A stretch of DNA of 64,000 bases from Bacteroidetes bacterium GWF2_38_335. GTDB taxonomy: Bacteria; Bacteroidota; Bacteroidia; Bacteroidales; GWF2-38-335. The notes below the pieces were generated by a model, which ran no database searches, had not been told where the DNA came from, and was given only the letters and a program-made list of their open reading frames with translations. This document shows, one piece after another, positions 10,801-64,000 of this stretch; within the stretch, counting starts at the first letter, position 1; each line of letters begins with the position of its first letter. The stretch is from positions 124,001 to 188,000 of the forward strand of contig MEOH01000022.1 in NCBI GenBank assembly GCA_001769535.1, written 5' to 3'. The position numbers and the translations under genes were made by a program.

Positions 10801-13800
10801 CCGGACAATCATCATATACACTAAAAGAAGCATACGAGTTACATCCACTCAGGGTAATTGAAACACATTCTGATCCGGTTGCAGTATAGCTGAAAACATA
10901 ATCTTCACCAGAAAGATAGGAAGAACTGCATGCGCCAGTGCTGGCACTGGTGTAGTCATTTCCCGAACAGGCTGTTGATAGACCCGTTGCAGTATAGGGC
11001 AATGAACCAATAATATTTGGAGTTGCACAGGTAAAACCTGTAGTTGTTCCAGAAGGAGCTGTAATATCAAGATCATACTGGTTATAATCAGGTGCGGGAT
11101 AGGAATCAATCACCAGATAATATTTCAGGCCTGATGTAACAGATGCACACAAACTCTTATCTGCTGTAGATGATTGTGCATAAGCAACACAAGTTCCTCC
11201 ACCTGTGGGACAGCCCTGATATAAGGTTACGCCTGAGTATGAGCCGGAAACGTCAGTAAGGTCAACCATGATGCTTCCTGAAGCGGAAGCAGTAAATACA
11301 TAGGCATAATCCATACCACCGTAATAAAGTGATGAACCACAAATGTTTGTCACATTAGAAGATGTGATATCATTTACCATTGCCTGAGTGGTATGGTTGT
11401 TTGCACTATACGGTAATGTAACATATGAAACACCTGTACCCAGAGGACAATCAACTATTCTGCGGCCTGTGCCGGGATTCGTAACAGTTGGAGTTCTTAC
11501 TATTGCGTTTGCAGTAAGTGCTGTACAACTTGCATCAGCCATGTTGTTGATGGTAGCACCGGCAGGGATATCATAGGTCAGCCAAAAATAATTAGTACCA
11601 CCCAAAAGAGTATACGGCATAGCAGCGCCACTATTAATTGTAAATCCTGCTCCCGGAGCTGCAACAGTTGCGCCCAACTGAGTTGTGGTGGCAAAGGTAG
11701 GACTATTGCCAGTTGACCATAATCTGGCATTGGTAATATCTGTGGCAGGAGCAGTTGTTCCTGCGGTTGTGAATGTAAAAGACGAAACGGTAAAAGGAGA
11801 TAAGGATCCACTGGTTACAATCTGAACACCAATAATTACCTGGTTTGTTGTCGAAAGCATTACATCAGAAGTGTTTGTCTGTGTTGTTGTGCTGGAAACA
11901 AATGCCATTGGTAAAGCATTAATATTGATGGTATAATCTTCTGTTTCTCCATAACTGCTGGCCGGACAAGGAGTATAAGTGTCGTTTTCAGTTGAAATGA
12001 TCCTCATTCTGGTTGTTCCATTGACCGTAGATGTTGGAATGGTAATGTTAAGAGATACCGGTCCTGCAGTAACATCATTGGCAATCAGATAGAATTCATC
12101 CCCGTCAGTAAAATCACCATCACGGTTCCAATCGAAATAAGCCATAACATCCTGGCCATAGGCAGTGCCGCCGAAATCAAAATCAACGGATAAAGCATAG
12201 GTATTGCCTTGGGTAACGGTGGTGGATATTGTAGTATAATCACCGTATTTGTTGGGAAGGTTGGCACCAGAGTTATTGTTTATTGTGTTGAAAGTTACAT
12301 TGGTGATCCACTCATCGTCAGGATCAGAGAAAGTTGCAGTACAATAATTAAGAGTTATTTTTCTATTTCCTGCAGGATCTGTAACGGTTGGAGTTCTTGC
12401 TGATCCAACAGTCAGAGAAGTACATTGTGCATCAATGTAATTATTGATGGTTGCGCTGACAGGAATATCATAAGTTAGCCAGAAATAATTGGTGCCTTCG
12501 GATAATGCCTGTGAACCGGTGATATTATATGAGCCACTTGGAGCGGCTACAGTTGAACCAACCTGAGTGGTAGTTGCAAAAGTGCTGCTGGTTCCTGTGT
12601 ACCATAATTTGGCATTGGTAATATCAGTTGCAGGAGCTGTTGTACCTGTTGTGTTGAAAGTAAAAGATGTGGCGTTCAAAGGTGATAAAGATCCTGTTGT
12701 AACAATCTGAACACCAATTACCTGCTGACTTGTTGTGTTCACGCCTACATCAGAAGTTACTGTTTGTGTAGTTGTGCAAGAATTGTAAACCATTCCCGAG
12801 GGAGCAGCAGTAGTGATTAAAATATTGTCAACAGCAGCAGGAGGATCAGTACCAACACTTCCATCATTTCTCCATGAAAAAACAATTCTTTTTGCAGTTC
12901 CTGCGTTAGCACCATCAAGGGTAAGGTTTACTGTTTGCCAGGTAGATTGCGAATTGTAATTTGACCCAAGTTGGCCTGATGATAATGATGTTCCTGCAAC
13001 CGGAGTGGTTGATGTCGGAACAAGGTATACCTGAAGGTAGTCACAACAACTTTCGCCAACAGCTTTCCAGTCAAAACTCATGTTAATGATGGTTTGGCCA
13101 GCAGGAAAATTGTAATCAAAATAGAAATGTGAAACCTGAGTAACACTGTTTGTATAGGAATTTGCTGATCCGTCATCTGTAATATAAGCACTGTTTGGAG
13201 CACCATTATGGGTTGCAGTTCCAACAATCCAGTAATTTGATGCATTGTTAACAGCAGTCATTGCATTGGCAGTAAAGTTTGTGCCAGAGCCGAAAGTTCC
13301 GTCAAGAACAGGAGCAGCAACAATTGGTCTGCTTCCGGCAGGCGAAGTAACACTTGGTGTTCGTGCAGAACCAACTGTAAGTGATGTACATTGCGCATCA
13401 ATGACATCAGTGACAGTGGCTGTTGCTTTAACATCATAAACCAACCAGAAATAATTGGTTCCTGAAGATAAAGTTTGCGAACCTGTAATATTATAACTCG
13501 CAACAGTTGGAGTATTTTGACCGAAAAGGGTAGTCAATGCAAAAGTACTACTTGTTCCTGTGTAATAAATTTTTGCGGAGTTTGCAGCATTTATATCATT
13601 AATATTTGTTGAACCGGCAGCATTTACCGAGAAGGAAGTAACTGAGAGTGGAGATGCTGTTCCGGATGTAACAATCTGTATTCCAATTATTTCTTGATTA
13701 AACGATCCCTGATAAACACTGCTGGTTACACCTTGGGTAACAGTGCTTGAAACATAAGACATGGGAGTAGCAGCAATAACGTTAAAAGAGTAATCTTCAC

Positions 13801-59127: not shown

Positions 59128-59369
59128 CCGTAGGTTGCACCTACGGCTATTGTTGTTGAACCCATAGGGTTCGAAGCATCCTCGGTTGCTTTCCCCTGTA
59201 GGTTAAAACCTACAGTAATGCTTGTTTTTTGCACCCCCTGTAGGTTAAAACCTACAGTTATGTTTGGGGAACCCGCTGGCCAGCGGGTTCTTTGTATCCT
59301 CAGCCACATCCACGAACAACCCGCTGGCTAGCGGGTTGCCCAATCATCCCCGTAGGTTTTAACCTACGG
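59128..59369. repeat. cluster of six short palindromes, two families
   Basis: Family 1 (GTAGGTT): 59128-59146 CCGTAGGTTGCACCTACGG; 59196-59215 CTGTAGGTTAAAACCTACAG; 59238-59257 the same; 59350-59369 CCGTAGGTTTTAACCTACGG. Family 2 (CCGCTGG): 59271-59288 ACCCGCTGGCCAGCGGGT; 59318-59337 AACCCGCTGGCTAGCGGGTT, also seen at 7603-7616. REP-like intergenic hairpins; no transposase nearby. Confidence 0.85.
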
Positions 59370-59632: not shown

Positions 59633-59794
59633 ATGGATGAAAATATTGAGCATTCGGATATTAATTCTTGCTATAAGAATATTGAAAGAGTTAAATTGGA
59701 TTGGGAAAAACCTGATTATATAGAATTAACCTTCATTAAAACCGAGAATAGTGGACCCTCTACAGGGGCAGATGGTGCTTCATATGCTAGCTAA
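59633..59794 (+). CDS. 53-aa peptide, lasso-peptide-precursor-like (RiPP candidate)
   Basis: ATG to TAA, 53 codons, no signal peptide. The N-terminal ~22 residues are acidic/polar (MDENIEHSDINSCYKNIER). Residues 24-38 read WEKPDYIELTFIKTE. Spacing of W1, P4, L9, F11 and T14 matches the leader of paeninodin-type lasso peptides, whose Thr is at -2 of the core. The remaining 15 residues NSGPSTGADGASYAS would be the core, with Asp at position 9 as a possible ring acceptor. No maturation genes (B1/B2/C) are in the window, so the modification is unproven. 15 bp from the giant gene, hence probably co-transcribed. Confidence 0.5.
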   Translation: MDENIEHSDINSCYKNIERVKLDWEKPDYIELTFIKTENSGPSTGADGASYAS

Positions 59795-59809: not shown

Positions 59810-62800
59810 ATGAAAATTATGAGAACATTAAGTTTTTTCATTATGTTTTTTTTGATTGTTTTTTCTGTAAAAAGTCAAAACATCGACCTTTTATGGACAA
59901 AAAATTTCACCGGGACTGGTAATAATCAACCGATAAAAATGGTTTCTGACGTTTCAGGAAACATATATATTATAGGTATTTTTTCAGGCACAGTAAATCA
60001 AGATGCTCTTTCGTTGTCAGCGACTGGTGCAAACGATATTTTTATTGCAAAATACAGTAAAATTGGTCAAATTATTTGGTTGAAACAAGTCGGCGGAACT
60101 CTTGGGGAAACACCCACTTCGATTGCTCTAAGCAATGATGGAAATTATTTTTATATTTCTGGAACAACTAGTAGCAATCCTTGCGTTTTTGATGCAACAA
60201 ATTTAGCTACAACTGGAGGATCAGATATTTTTATTGCAAAATATGCAATAGATGGAACCTTGCAATGGGCTCATAATTCAGGATATAGTGCAACAAATCA
60301 ATTTGGAGGAAATATTTCCATTGATAATTCGGATAATATTGTAATGACAGGGATGTTTCTTGTGGATATTACATTTTATGGAGGGGTAACAACTTTGACC
60401 TCACCAGCTCCTGCAGTAAGACAACCCTTTATCTCAAAGTTTGATATTGATGGAAATTTAACTTGGGCTAAAATGATTGTTACAGATAATTCTCTAACAA
60501 CCTTTAGAAATGTTAGTTCTGATGGTACTGGTTATTATTTTAGTGGCAATTATAATGGTACTTTAAACTTTGATGTTGGTGCAGTTACGTGCATAGGAAC
60601 TTCTGATGGTTTTATTTTTAAGACGGATTTTAATGGTACAGGTCAGTGGGTAAGAAAAGTTGTTGGTACTAGCGCTGAAGTTATTTGGAGGCATCATGGC
60701 GATAACACTGGATATCAGTACATTCTTGGGTATTATAATAGCCCTACTTTATCTATTGATTCGACAGGGGTTGTATCTTCATTATTGACATATCCAAATG
60801 CGGGAAATAATGATTTAATTTTGCTAAAATATGCTCCTGATGGAACCTTACAATTTGCAAAAAACTACGGTTCTAATGGTGATGACCAAGGAAATGCAAT
60901 ATCTGTTAATGATGATCATGTAATCATTGGCGGTCAATATTCCGGTTCCATAAACTTTGGCACTTTTAATCTTACAAATACTGGTGCTGATGCCTTTATG
61001 GTTGAAACAGATCTTGACGGCAATGTTCTTTCTGCTAAAAAAGCCACAGGTGCAAATACAGAATTTACCAAAACTACGAGGATTGCAAGTGACAACACCA
61101 ACATCTTCTGCGGCGACTTCACCTCCGCCACCATCGACATCGACGGCAAAACCCTAACCAACGCCTCAGCCGGTACCCGCGACATGTTCATAGCCAAATA
61201 CGGCAAAATAACCCTCGACACCATCGTTACCAAAGCCAATTGCGACCATACGCTGGATGGGGCTATTGATTTGACTGTTAGCGGGGATGGTACTGCTCCT
61301 TATACTTATTTGTGGTCGGGACCTTCGGGGTATACCAATAATATTGAAGATATTTCAGGGTTGGCAGTTGGTGCTTACAGTTGTACTGTTACCGATGCCA
61401 ATGGCGCTACTAAAACCATTGCTGTTAATATTACCAACAAACCATCACTGACCGGTGGAATGGACGACCATTATCTCATCGTTCCCTGTTCCAGCAGCAC
61501 CAACGGTGAAACTACCATGCTGTATGCTGATGGTGTGGCTCCTTTTACTTTTACCTGGACTGCCGAGGCTGGTGTGACTGCTTCAACAAGCATCAGCAAT
61601 TTTGCCGATGACCTTGGCGTTGGAAAACATTACTGTACCGTAAATGACTTCTGCGGTCACCCGATTACCGACTCTGTTTCGGTTTATTATTTCCCCACAT
61701 TGGTCATTTCTACCGCTATTATTGAAGATGCCACCTGCGAATCGGTTTGCGACGGCGAACTGGTTATGGACATCAGCTCAGGTTTACCTCCATATACTAT
61801 TGCGTGGTCAGGCTCTCCTTCAACCACTTCAACTGCTTCGAACCTGTGCACCGGATGGCATTATATAACTGTAACCGACCTTTGCGGCGACCATGTGGAC
61901 TCTGCTTATGTTGATTTTAATACTCCGGTTACTTCTGAAACTCATTTCCTGAGCAATGTAACTTGTCCGGCTATCGAAGACGGTTCGGCTTATGCTGTTG
62001 TCAGCGATGGTACTGCTCCTTTCTCATTCTTCTGGTCTTCAGCTGCTGCTGAATCAAATGATACCGCTGTGCTGCTCGAATTCGGATGGAACTATGTTAC
62101 CATCGTCGATGCCTGCCGCACAATTATTGACTCTGTTTACATTCCCAGCGATCCTTTAATGACCACCGATGTTATGGCTGCCACTACCGCAACTTGTGCT
62201 GCCATAAACGACGGTTCGGCCACTGCCACTACAACGGGAGCCACCGCTCCTGTTACCTACACCTGGCAGGCCCCGTCAACTTCGGTTACCTCCAGTGCCA
62301 ATGACCTGCAGGTGGGATGGAATTACGTAATTATTGCCGACGCTTGTACATCAATTCTGGATTCTGTTGAAATTGAATCTGATCCTTTGATGACCATAGA
62401 TATTACCTCATCAACCAATGCCACCTGCGCCGCCATCAATGACGGAACGGCTTCTGTAAGTGTTTTCGGTTCAACGGCTCCAATTACCTACGCATGGTCA
62501 GCCCCGTCAATATCTGTTGCCAACAGTGCCAATGACCTTGATGTGGGATGGAATTACGTGACTGTTACCGATGCGTGTATCGCTTTGGTTGACTCTGTTA
62601 ACATCCTCAGCAATCCGCTGATGACAATAGATATTACTTCATCTGATAACGCAACCTGTGCTGCCATCAATGATGGTTCGGCTTCGGTTTCTGTTTTCGG
62701 ATCCACCGCTCCGGTTTCCTATGCATGGTCATTGCCATCAACTTCAATTACAAATTCTGCAAACGATTTACCTGTTGGCTGGAATTATGTCACTGTGACT

Positions 62801-64000
62801 GATGCATGTACATCTGTTGTGGATTCTGTTGATATCCTAAGTGATCCACTTATGACCACCAGTATCACTTTCTCAAGCGGTGCAACCTGTACCGGACTTC
62901 AGGATGGTGAGGCAACCGTAACTGCATTTGGCGCAACCGCACCAATTAGCTATGCATGGAGCCTGCCTTCGACATCAACTGCTGCCTATGCTGGTGATCT
63001 GCCAACCGGCTGGAGTTATGTCACTGTGACTGATGCTTGTACATCTAACAGGGATTCGGTTAACATTGGTTCCGACCCATTGATGACAATTGATATTACC
63101 TCATCCAACCCTGCCACCTGTGCTGCCATTAATGATGGTACTGCCCACGTTACCCTTACTGGTGCTGTGGCTCCTTTTACCATTGCCTGGTCAGCTCCTT
63201 CTACTTCAACTTTAGAAGATGCTACAGATCTGCACGTTGGATGGAACTACGTAACTGTTACTGATGCTTGTACAGCGGTTGTTGATTCTGTAAATATCGC
63301 CAGTGATCCTACAATTTCTTCGGATATTGCTTCTTCAACTGCTGCGACCTGTATTGCCATTAATGACGGTACTGCCTCAGTGGTAGTATACAGTGCGACC
63401 GGCACAGTTACCTATTTATGGGGTGCACCGTCAATAAGCACACTGGCTTCGGCAACAGACCTTGAAGTGGGATGGAACTACATCACCATTACCGATGCCT
63501 GTACCGCAATCGTTGATTCGGTTGATATACCAAGTGCTCCGGCTACCCTCGCCACATCAATAATTTCCTCAACGGTTGCTTCATGTGCTGGTGTAAACAA
63601 TGGTTCTGCTGAAGTTTCTGCATCCGGAACCAATGGCGCAGTGACCTATGCATGGTCTGCTCCTTCAGTATCCGTGGCTGCTACCGCTGCCGATTTGCAG
63701 GTTGGATGGAATTATGTCACCGTAACCGATATCTGTACTTTTAAAGTTGATTCAGTAGATATCGGAAGTGCTCCGCTCATGACCATCGACATAACCGATT
63801 CACTGGATGCATCCTGTGCTGCCGTTAACAATGGTTATGCTGTTGTTTTGGCATCAGGCGCCACTGCACCGATAACCTATGTTTGGTCAGCTCCATCGGT
63901 TACACTTAACGATACAGCTTATGATCTTGCAGTGGGATGGAACTATGTAACTGTTACAGATGCGTGTACTTCATTGATTGATTCGGTTGAGCTGTTTAGC
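59810..64000 (+). CDS. giant SBBP- and SprB-like-repeat secreted protein (5' part; runs off the window)
   Basis: Open without a stop from the ATG at 59810 to the last base (1397 codons). Signal peptide MKIMRTLSFFIMFFLIVFSV, with cleavage near KSQ. Residues ~25-465 carry seven SBBP beta-propeller blades (DIFIAKYSKIGQIIWLKQVG, then DIFIAKYAIDGTLQWAHNSG and similar). Then come SprB-like repeats; from 62150 on they are regular, with a 231-bp (77-aa) period: DPLMTIDITSSTNATCAAIN, then TYAWSAPS and DLxVGWNYVTVTDACT. Likely a T9SS adhesin; the sorting domain, if any, lies outside. Codon use changes sharply near 61075. Confidence 0.85.
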   Translation, partial: MKIMRTLSFFIMFFLIVFSVKSQNIDLLWTKNFTGTGNNQPIKMVSDVSGNIYIIGIFSGTVNQDALSLSATGANDIFIAKYSKIGQIIWLKQVGGTLGETPTSIALSNDGNYFYISGTTSSNPCVFDATNLATTGGSDIFIAKYAIDGTLQWAHNSGYSATNQFGGNISIDNSDNIVMTGMFLVDITFYGGVTTLTSPAPAVRQPFISKFDIDGNLTWAKMIVTDNSLTTFRNVSSDGTGYYFSGNYNGTLNFDVGAVTCIGTSDGFIFKTDFNGTGQWVRKVVGTSAEVIWRHHGDNTGYQYILGYYNSPTLSIDSTGVVSSLLTYPNAGNNDLILLKYAPDGTLQFAKNYGSNGDDQGNAISVNDDHVIIGGQYSGSINFGTFNLTNTGADAFMVETDLDGNVLSAKKATGANTEFTKTTRIASDNTNIFCGDFTSATIDIDGKTLTNASAGTRDMFIAKYGKITLDTIVTKANCDHTLDGAIDLTVSGDGTAPYTYLWSGPSGYTNNIEDISGLAVGAYSCTVTDANGATKTIAVNITNKPSLTGGMDDHYLIVPCSSSTNGETTMLYADGVAPFTFTWTAEAGVTASTSISNFADDLGVGKHYCTVNDFCGHPITDSVSVYYFPTLVISTAIIEDATCESVCDGELVMDISSGLPPYTIAWSGSPSTTSTASNLCTGWHYITVTDLCGDHVDSAYVDFNTPVTSETHFLSNVTCPAIEDGSAYAVVSDGTAPFSFFWSSAAAESNDTAVLLEFGWNYVTIVDACRTIIDSVYIPSDPLMTTDVMAATTATCAAINDGSATATTTGATAPVTYTWQAPSTSVTSSANDLQVGWNYVIIADACTSILDSVEIESDPLMTIDITSSTNATCAAINDGTASVSVFGSTAPITYAWSAPSISVANSANDLDVGWNYVTVTDACIALVDSVNILSNPLMTIDITSSDNATCAAINDGSASVSVFGSTAPVSYAWSLPSTSITNSANDLPVGWNYVTVTDACTSVVDSVDILSDPLMTTSITFSSGATCTGLQDGEATVTAFGATAPISYAWSLPSTSTAAYAGDLPTGWSYVTVTDACTSNRDSVNIGSDPLMTIDITSSNPATCAAINDGTAHVTLTGAVAPFTIAWSAPSTSTLEDATDLHVGWNYVTVTDACTAVVDSVNIASDPTISSDIASSTAATCIAINDGTASVVVYSATGTVTYLWGAPSISTLASATDLEVGWNYITITDACTAIVDSVDIPSAPATLATSIISSTVASCAGVNNGSAEVSASGTNGAVTYAWSAPSVSVAATAADLQVGWNYVTVTDICTFKVDSVDIGSAPLMTIDITDSLDASCAAVNNGYAVVLASGATAPITYVWSAPSVTLNDTAYDLAVGWNYVTVTDACTSLIDSVELFS
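62150..64000 (+). repeat. 231-bp in-frame tandem repeat array
   Basis: Unit starts (the DPLM/APLM codons) at 62150, 62381, 62612, 62843, 63074, 63305 and 63536: exactly 231 bp each; the next is 234 bp away (63770). At least eight units, diverged mostly at synonymous and loop positions. Continues past the window edge. Confidence 0.85.

Follow-up and report, generated by a model that had tools for sequence, protein, structure and literature searches.

A probable lasso peptide precursor encoded beside a giant type IX-secreted surface protein and apart from its predicted maturation enzymes in a Bacteroidales genome

Introduction

What is made by a 53-codon open reading frame (ORF) that carries a lasso-type leader motif, stands directly ahead of a gene for a giant surface protein and has no maturation enzymes around it? 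The ORF lies near the end of a 64,000-nucleotide stretch of the Bacteroidetes bacterium GWF2_38_335 genome, the whole of which is called the window here. The original prediction took it for a possible RiPP precursor with a paeninodin-type leader and cited the giant neighbour as a location only.

The natural role of most lasso peptides is unclear, and clustering with the precursor is usual for their genes, though not strictly defining. According to the accessible text of earlier work, lasso leaders carry Thr at -2 and an aromatic-x2-Pro motif (PMC10368454), B1 binds the leader (PMC5067487) and a lasso cluster is known in the Bacteroidota symbiont Amoebophilus (PMC8831229). In the open-access literature, outside which most subscription papers lie, no report joining lasso peptides with type IX secretion (T9SS) was found; lasso combined with SprB matched only a Streptomyces review, and a Bacteroidales RiPP mining paper, as far as its text is accessible, names lasso solely in a reference and in the glossary (PMC10352776). 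Here, we report that the product of this tiny gene is very probably a knotted lasso peptide, matured by enzymes that, judging from their sequences, are encoded elsewhere in the genome, and we examine what its giant neighbour may have to do with the product.

Materials and methods

The own genome, which was searched throughout, spans 29 contigs and 5.27 Mb at 96.7% completeness and 0.4% contamination. For comparison we fetched four sets of loci: the B2 loci of all 14 B2-bearing relatives among 98; 17 giant-homologue loci, most of them high-ranking matches; 53 named PqqD loci; and the 18 loci at which B2 was matched when 395 genomes of the class, the own genome among them, were drawn. A precursor profile was built from 18 precursors, with both own-genome peptides left out, and searched over 12 genomes; its matches in seven other genomes are training members. 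A cyclase profile (A1) was built from the own-genome cyclase and six others. An ABC exporter was called when our own model scored above 150 bits at a locus holding cyclase and B2.

Results and discussion

Anatomy of the precursor

Translation of the ORF gives MDENIEHSDINSCYKNIERVKLDWEKPDYIELTFIKTENSGPSTGADGASYAS (Table 1). Its leader residues W24, P27, L32, F34 and T37 form W-x2-P-x4-L-x-F-x2-T-x, so that the spacing claimed at first sight is confirmed, and after T37-E38 follows a core of 15 residues with the expected Asp at position 9 (D47) and a C-terminal Ser53. Both hallmarks of a lasso leader, aromatic-x2-Pro and Thr at -2, are thus present, and Asp9 falls within core positions 7-9. The place of cleavage was assigned because Thr sits at -2.

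Table 1. Features of the precursor-giant gene locus, in window positions
Feature	Position	Strand	Remarks
Lasso-type precursor ORF, 53 aa + stop	59633..59794	+	Translation; top of own-genome profile search
Leader recognition segment W24-E38	59702..59746	+	W -15, P -12, L -7, T -2
Predicted core NSGPSTGADGASYAS	59747..59791	+	Predicted ring N1-D9, tail G10-S15, C-terminal Ser
Giant gene start	59810..64000	+	15 nt after precursor stop; runs beyond window end
N-terminal SBBP seven-bladed-type beta-propeller domain, residues 4-466	59819..61207	+	
SprB-repeat region, start approximate	61208..64000	+	

The core begins with Asn1, an uncommon first residue, and we know of no characterised lasso peptide with Asn at this position. 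Across 20 related precursors the first core residue is Gly in eight, Ser in six, Asn in three, and Ala, Glu and Gln in one each. A C-terminal Ser is found in 17 of the 20, which fits kinase-tailored lasso peptides. Asp or Glu stands at core 7-9 in 18 of the 19 precursors parsed by script, the exception being L065; the L072 precursor, which has one extra residue and falls outside the parsing rule, was read by eye (Asp8 and Asp9) and is counted among the 20.

No known lasso precursor family matched the window ORF. The paeninodin family model NF033524 gave no match to it, and in the own genome returned three weak matches, none above the cut-off and none at this ORF. As a control, a Fictibacillus precursor (L162), whose leader spacing equals that of the window precursor, passes the same model with 59 bits against a cut-off of 27.

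The gap upstream of the precursor (59198-59367) is filled by perfect palindromes: one family, GTAGGTTNNAACCTAC, occurs there three times, where shuffles give an expectation of 0.03, and between its copies lie palindromes of the CCCGCTGG type. The exact words were absent from ten other own-genome stretches checked.

Relatives of the precursor

A lack of homologues had been named beforehand as a sign against a lasso precursor. It held true only for single-peptide look-ups and was overturned by synteny and the profile. With the 53-aa peptide as the query, no relative was found among genome contigs and viral contigs, and 22 of 99 genomes (own included) gave matches at E <=1, none of them significant. 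The best match outside the own genome (G001, E 0.044) was discounted as it falls within a 769-aa frame, and an own-genome match on contig C16 was dropped, having 30% identity and one internal stop. The second best outside match (G047, E 0.073) is a real precursor when judged by its neighbours: this 56-aa ORF is flanked by a cyclase-like gene on one side and a giant-protein homologue on the other, and its 10-kb contig also carries B2.

In the out-of-sample profile search of the own genome (5.27 Mb), the window ORF ranks first (E 2.7e-5). The second match (E 0.10) has an internal stop, and the third (E 0.18) is an ORF on contig C6, which is the second lasso-type precursor of this genome (L104:4314-4472, minus strand, 52 aa), located beside another giant SBBP protein. 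The same profile gave E 0.33, E 0.58 and no match in three genomes without B2. The homologous precursors retain Pro and Thr of the leader and mostly the C-terminal Ser; at the place of Trp they have Trp or Tyr, and for Asp9 an acidic residue at 7-9. In the relatives, precursors directly adjoin lasso cyclase and B2 genes.

How much the motif itself can carry was gauged with shuffled sequence. Among window ORFs of 30-110 aa the exact motif W..P....L.F..T occurs once, and 60 dinucleotide shuffles did not produce it, whereas a looser rule (W/Y, P, T and D/E at core 7-9), defined only after related precursors had been examined, gives 0.18 matches per shuffled window, with a maximum of two. Since the looser rule matches shuffled windows, the motif by itself is only suggestive, and the case for a gene is made by homology and position. 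That the ORF arose by chance, or is an untranslated leader of the giant gene, gains a little from the loose-rule background but is scarcely credible given the rank and E-value in the out-of-sample search and the repeated synteny. A strict rule applied to 919 kb of fetched DNA returned 17 ORFs from the 280 kb that lie no more than 500 nt from a lasso or SBBP gene and two from the rest, which serves as a consistency check only, because the rule was set after examples had been seen and the stretches had been picked for lasso or SBBP genes.

Maturation enzymes elsewhere in the genome

That the window holds no maturation enzymes, as noted at the outset, is correct: matches to PqqD, B2, asparagine synthase and cyclase profiles throughout the genome all lie on other contigs. 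The RRE protein and the protease that the original prediction proposed to seek were both found above curated cut-offs. A lasso-type B1 (PqqD-type) on contig C12 scores 98.9 bits with NF033536 (cut-off 80), and B2 on C18 scores 78.8 bits with NF033537 (cut-off 33). The third enzyme sought, an asparagine-synthetase-like cyclase, was found in part as hoped: the best NCBIfam model of the gene on C9 is the lasso cyclase NF033535, but its 272.8 bits are under that model's cut-off of 525. This protein scores lower with asparagine synthase (157.7 bits) and aligns over its length with cyclases found beside precursors. High scores of the seven training cyclases with profile A1 are built in, as A1 contains them; in genomes outside training, A1 gave a best score of 453 bits in G001 (next 203) and 438 in G037 (next 230). 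As a separate observation, the own-genome cyclase gene lies 14 nt downstream of a gene for a TraB/PrgY/gumN-domain protein (L038:6212-11862).

Candidate tailoring enzymes accompany this set. B1 stands in a row with an HprK-like kinase (Hpr_kinase_C 41.5 bits, cut-off 33.3), which adjoins it, and a sulfotransferase (PF00685 94.7 bits, cut-off 22), and about 3 kb from B2 there is a nucleotidyltransferase-like gene (NTP_transf_5 160.1 bits, cut-off 31.2). Ser53 at the end of the core and a kinase next to B1 are the two features of a kinase-tailored lasso system.

A complete B1, B2 and cyclase set occurs in nine of nine genomes having the pair or a cluster. In the own genome the lasso genes are not clustered with the precursor but lie on three other contigs, whereas they are clustered in G097, G008 and others. 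An absence of lasso genes from the genome, another sign that had been expected to speak against the prediction, is contradicted, with the qualification that they are scattered. The B1, B2 and cyclase genes are all 56 kb or more away from a contig end, so the scatter is no assembly effect.

Scatter of this kind, together with Asn at core 1, might mean that a former cluster has broken up and that the window precursor is a relic no longer matured. We consider this improbable. The leader, acidic residue and C-terminal Ser of the precursor are intact; key motifs are kept in the enzymes (Cys and His of B2, the kinase P-loop and LSGGLDSG of the cyclase) as well as in B1; a second precursor has been retained with its own giant gene; and enzyme genes are likewise scattered without decay in G001, G037 and G053.

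A different type of RiPP, RRE-guided with a lasso-like leader but trimmed and phosphorylated or otherwise cyclised without a knot, has an equally slim chance. The PqqA model matches the window ORF weakly (12.6 bits, below the cut-off of 21.1), the predicted tail is a short six residues, and a second PqqD-like gene on C12 (L026:10841-12233, plus strand) overlaps an ATP-grasp gene; this last pair may be a separate RRE-guided peptide system. Precursors in relatives, however, are directly beside lasso cyclase and B2 genes. The lasso precursor reading is thus supported both by enzymes in the genome and by homologues with a conserved motif.

The giant neighbour

The full product of the neighbouring gene (2023 aa) begins with a hydrophobic, signal peptide-like segment; next come the SBBP propeller and the SprB repeats, and a type B T9SS tail closes the protein. 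The tail (residues 1936-2023) and a downstream PorP/SprF gene are both beyond the window. PF13573 (SprB) matches in 15 stretches, and the sorting domain is recognised by PF13585 (90.2 bits) and TIGR04131 (58.4 bits); having both repeats and sorting domain, the neighbour is a T9SS-secreted SprB-repeat protein.

A structure model of residues 1-467, made from four sequences, has a mean pLDDT of 79.4 and a pTM of 0.80. Among solved folds its best counterpart (E 5.4e-18, TM-score by query 0.71) is CylK, the alkylating beta-propeller enzyme of the cylindrocyclophane pathway, and the sequences also match (E 6e-32) in stretches of the C-terminal propeller of CylK. The propeller fold is shared, but the N-terminal Ca-binding domain is not: that CylK domain has no significant counterpart in the giant protein. 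In the accessible text, this is the domain that supplies CylK Arg105 (PMC8916777). CylK-like catalysis was set aside because the significant match is limited to the C-terminal propeller region; lacking a counterpart of the Arg105 domain, the giant protein is not expected to perform CylK chemistry, and binding would be its likelier task. A lasso isopeptidase was also considered. Such enzymes combine an open propeller with a hydrolase domain (PMC9266682, accessible text), and this reading was set aside since a scan of seven giant proteins revealed no hydrolase domain.

Recurrence of the precursor-giant gene pair

Homologues of the giant protein recur beside lasso precursors, which gives the neighbour more weight than a mere location. 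In eight further genomes or loci (G047, G097, G043, G053, G037, L125, L136 and L151, the last three being Bacteroidales metagenome assemblies), precursor and giant homologue share a strand, with the precursor just upstream. The gap is 15 nt in the window, 119 nt in G047, 12 in G097, 26 in G043, 12 in G053, 200 in G037 and 11 in L125; it is 28 nt in L136 if the giant gene starts at 10902, and in L151 the genes touch. All of these giant homologues have an SBBP beta-propeller, and those whose sequence was followed to its end have SprB repeats and a type IX tail as well. In G008 a cyclase-precursor unit adjoins two giant genes; in G063 a cluster and a giant gene are present, with no precursor detected.

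The association follows B2. A precursor ORF lies within 500 nt of the giant gene at five of eight loci in B2 genomes and at none of nine in genomes without B2, four of these nine loci belonging to one genome (p 0.009). SBBP proteins themselves are widespread, with matches in 10 of 15 B2 genomes and 36 of 84 others (99 genomes). On a tree of 28 SBBP domains, from which six rows were left out (five duplicates and one under 260 aa), the precursor-linked label needs five changes against a shuffled mean of 9.6, and 2 of 500 shuffles were as low; well-supported branches force at least three changes (bootstrap not settled). The counts indicate that the link is clustered yet recurrent in several lineages. 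Beside SBBP giants without a precursor, in three genomes without B2 (L110, L112 and L115), we observed ORFs that resemble sulfotransferases by their starts, which are of the HIGYPKTATTW type.

Seen from the lasso side, a giant gene occurs within the fetched stretch at 4 of the 14 relatives' B2 loci, 3 of the 53 named PqqD loci (3 of the 14 Bacteroidota ones) and 0 of the 18 class-level loci, all lower bounds as several contigs are short. Owing to this low frequency, the pairing must be regarded as confined to certain members of one order and not as a trait of lasso peptides generally. An ABC exporter was called at none of seven loci with the giant gene and at 24 of 40 without it (p 0.004); within Bacteroidota, cluster-linked exporters being counted, the figures are 0/7 and 8/19, which is not significant (p 0.06).

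The recurrence of a small gene with a giant gene suggests, by synteny alone, that peptide and surface protein work together. Nevertheless, the precursor might be real and the giant gene a mere neighbour, sharing a promoter for regulation while the peptide acts by itself, for example as an antibiotic or signal. The majority of lasso loci lack a giant gene, many SBBP genes lack a precursor (12 of 17 loci by the strict rule) and the order of the pair varies: the precursor is downstream of the second giant gene in the own genome (L104, C6), and the two genes are divergent in the same-genus genome G001 (L105). We nevertheless hold this explanation to be rather unlikely, though deserving of attention, for three reasons. 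The first is that several families of one order have the two genes close together on one strand, either touching or 11-28 nt apart. The second is the clustering of the linked label on the SBBP tree across several lineages, and the third is that precursor ORFs beside SBBP genes occur solely in B2 genomes.

Proposed maturation and role of the peptide

It is likely, in our judgement, that the precursor is matured in trans and that its product acts with the surface propeller protein; the first part draws on sequence and the second on synteny. B1 would bind the W..P....L.F..T leader of this class-II-type precursor, and the adjacent kinase probably phosphorylates the C-terminal Ser, which the nucleotidyltransferase and sulfotransferase may tailor further. 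B2 is predicted to cut two residues after Thr37, i.e. after Glu38, whereupon the cyclase would close a ring about the threaded tail by linking the amine of Asn1 with the side chain of Asp9. One enzyme set would act in trans on no fewer than two precursors, those of C22 and C6, each adjoining its own giant protein with a signal peptide-like start and an SBBP propeller, to which that of the window adds SprB repeats and a type IX tail. No dedicated ABC exporter encoded in a cluster would be needed for the mature peptide to leave the cell, and the peptide would act with the surface protein, most likely as a propeller-held ligand; the gene order prompts this guess at binding.

A bolder proposal is that lasso peptides in this lineage do not act as free antibiotics and instead belong, as dedicated components, to giant surface proteins. 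Every precursor would then share its locus with a T9SS-secreted SBBP/SprB protein of its own, several precursors would be matured in trans by a single enzyme set, the usual ABC exporter would be dispensed with, and the propeller would hold the knotted, C-terminally tailored peptide at the cell surface, where it would serve as ligand, cofactor or tip. Taken as a whole, this proposal is speculative and we would sooner doubt it than accept it.

If the partnership is true, a conserved secreted surface partner gives a lasso peptide a testable role, lasso peptides would include components of a surface machine besides diffusible compounds, and there is an initial clue to a possible ligand of an SBBP/SprB surface protein. 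Moreover, precursors distant from their enzymes escape cluster-based mining, and synteny with the giant gene finds them.

Comparison with known systems

The window system resembles the paeninodin type (PadeA; NF033524) in W/Y at -15, P at -12 and T at -2, the acidic core residue 9, the C-terminal Ser, separate B1 and B2 and an HprK-like kinase. In paeninodin, PadeK phosphorylates the C-terminal Ser on the precursor (PMC9266682, accessible text). It differs in that NF033524 does not recognise the ORF, the enzymes are unclustered, the core begins with Asn, no ABC exporter is adjacent to the precursor and the precursor is paired with a giant T9SS protein. The pseudomycoidin type (PsmN) shares with the own genome a kinase and a nucleotidyltransferase-like gene (NTP_transf_5 here); a nucleotidyltransferase homologue is there linked to hexose addition at the C-terminal Ser, besides phosphate (same source and extent). 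Unlike in those clusters, the gene here is near B2 on another contig than the precursor, and its action is a prediction. SprB-type gliding and adhesin proteins share the SprB repeats, type IX secretion tail and downstream PorP/SprF gene of the giant, which is distinguished from them by its N-terminal SBBP propeller and the adjacent lasso precursor. Outside this group, a zetaproteobacterial lasso locus (L167:6220-6900) contains three precursor-like ORFs that resemble one another; their cores are rich in Lys/Arg and lack an acidic residue at 7-9.
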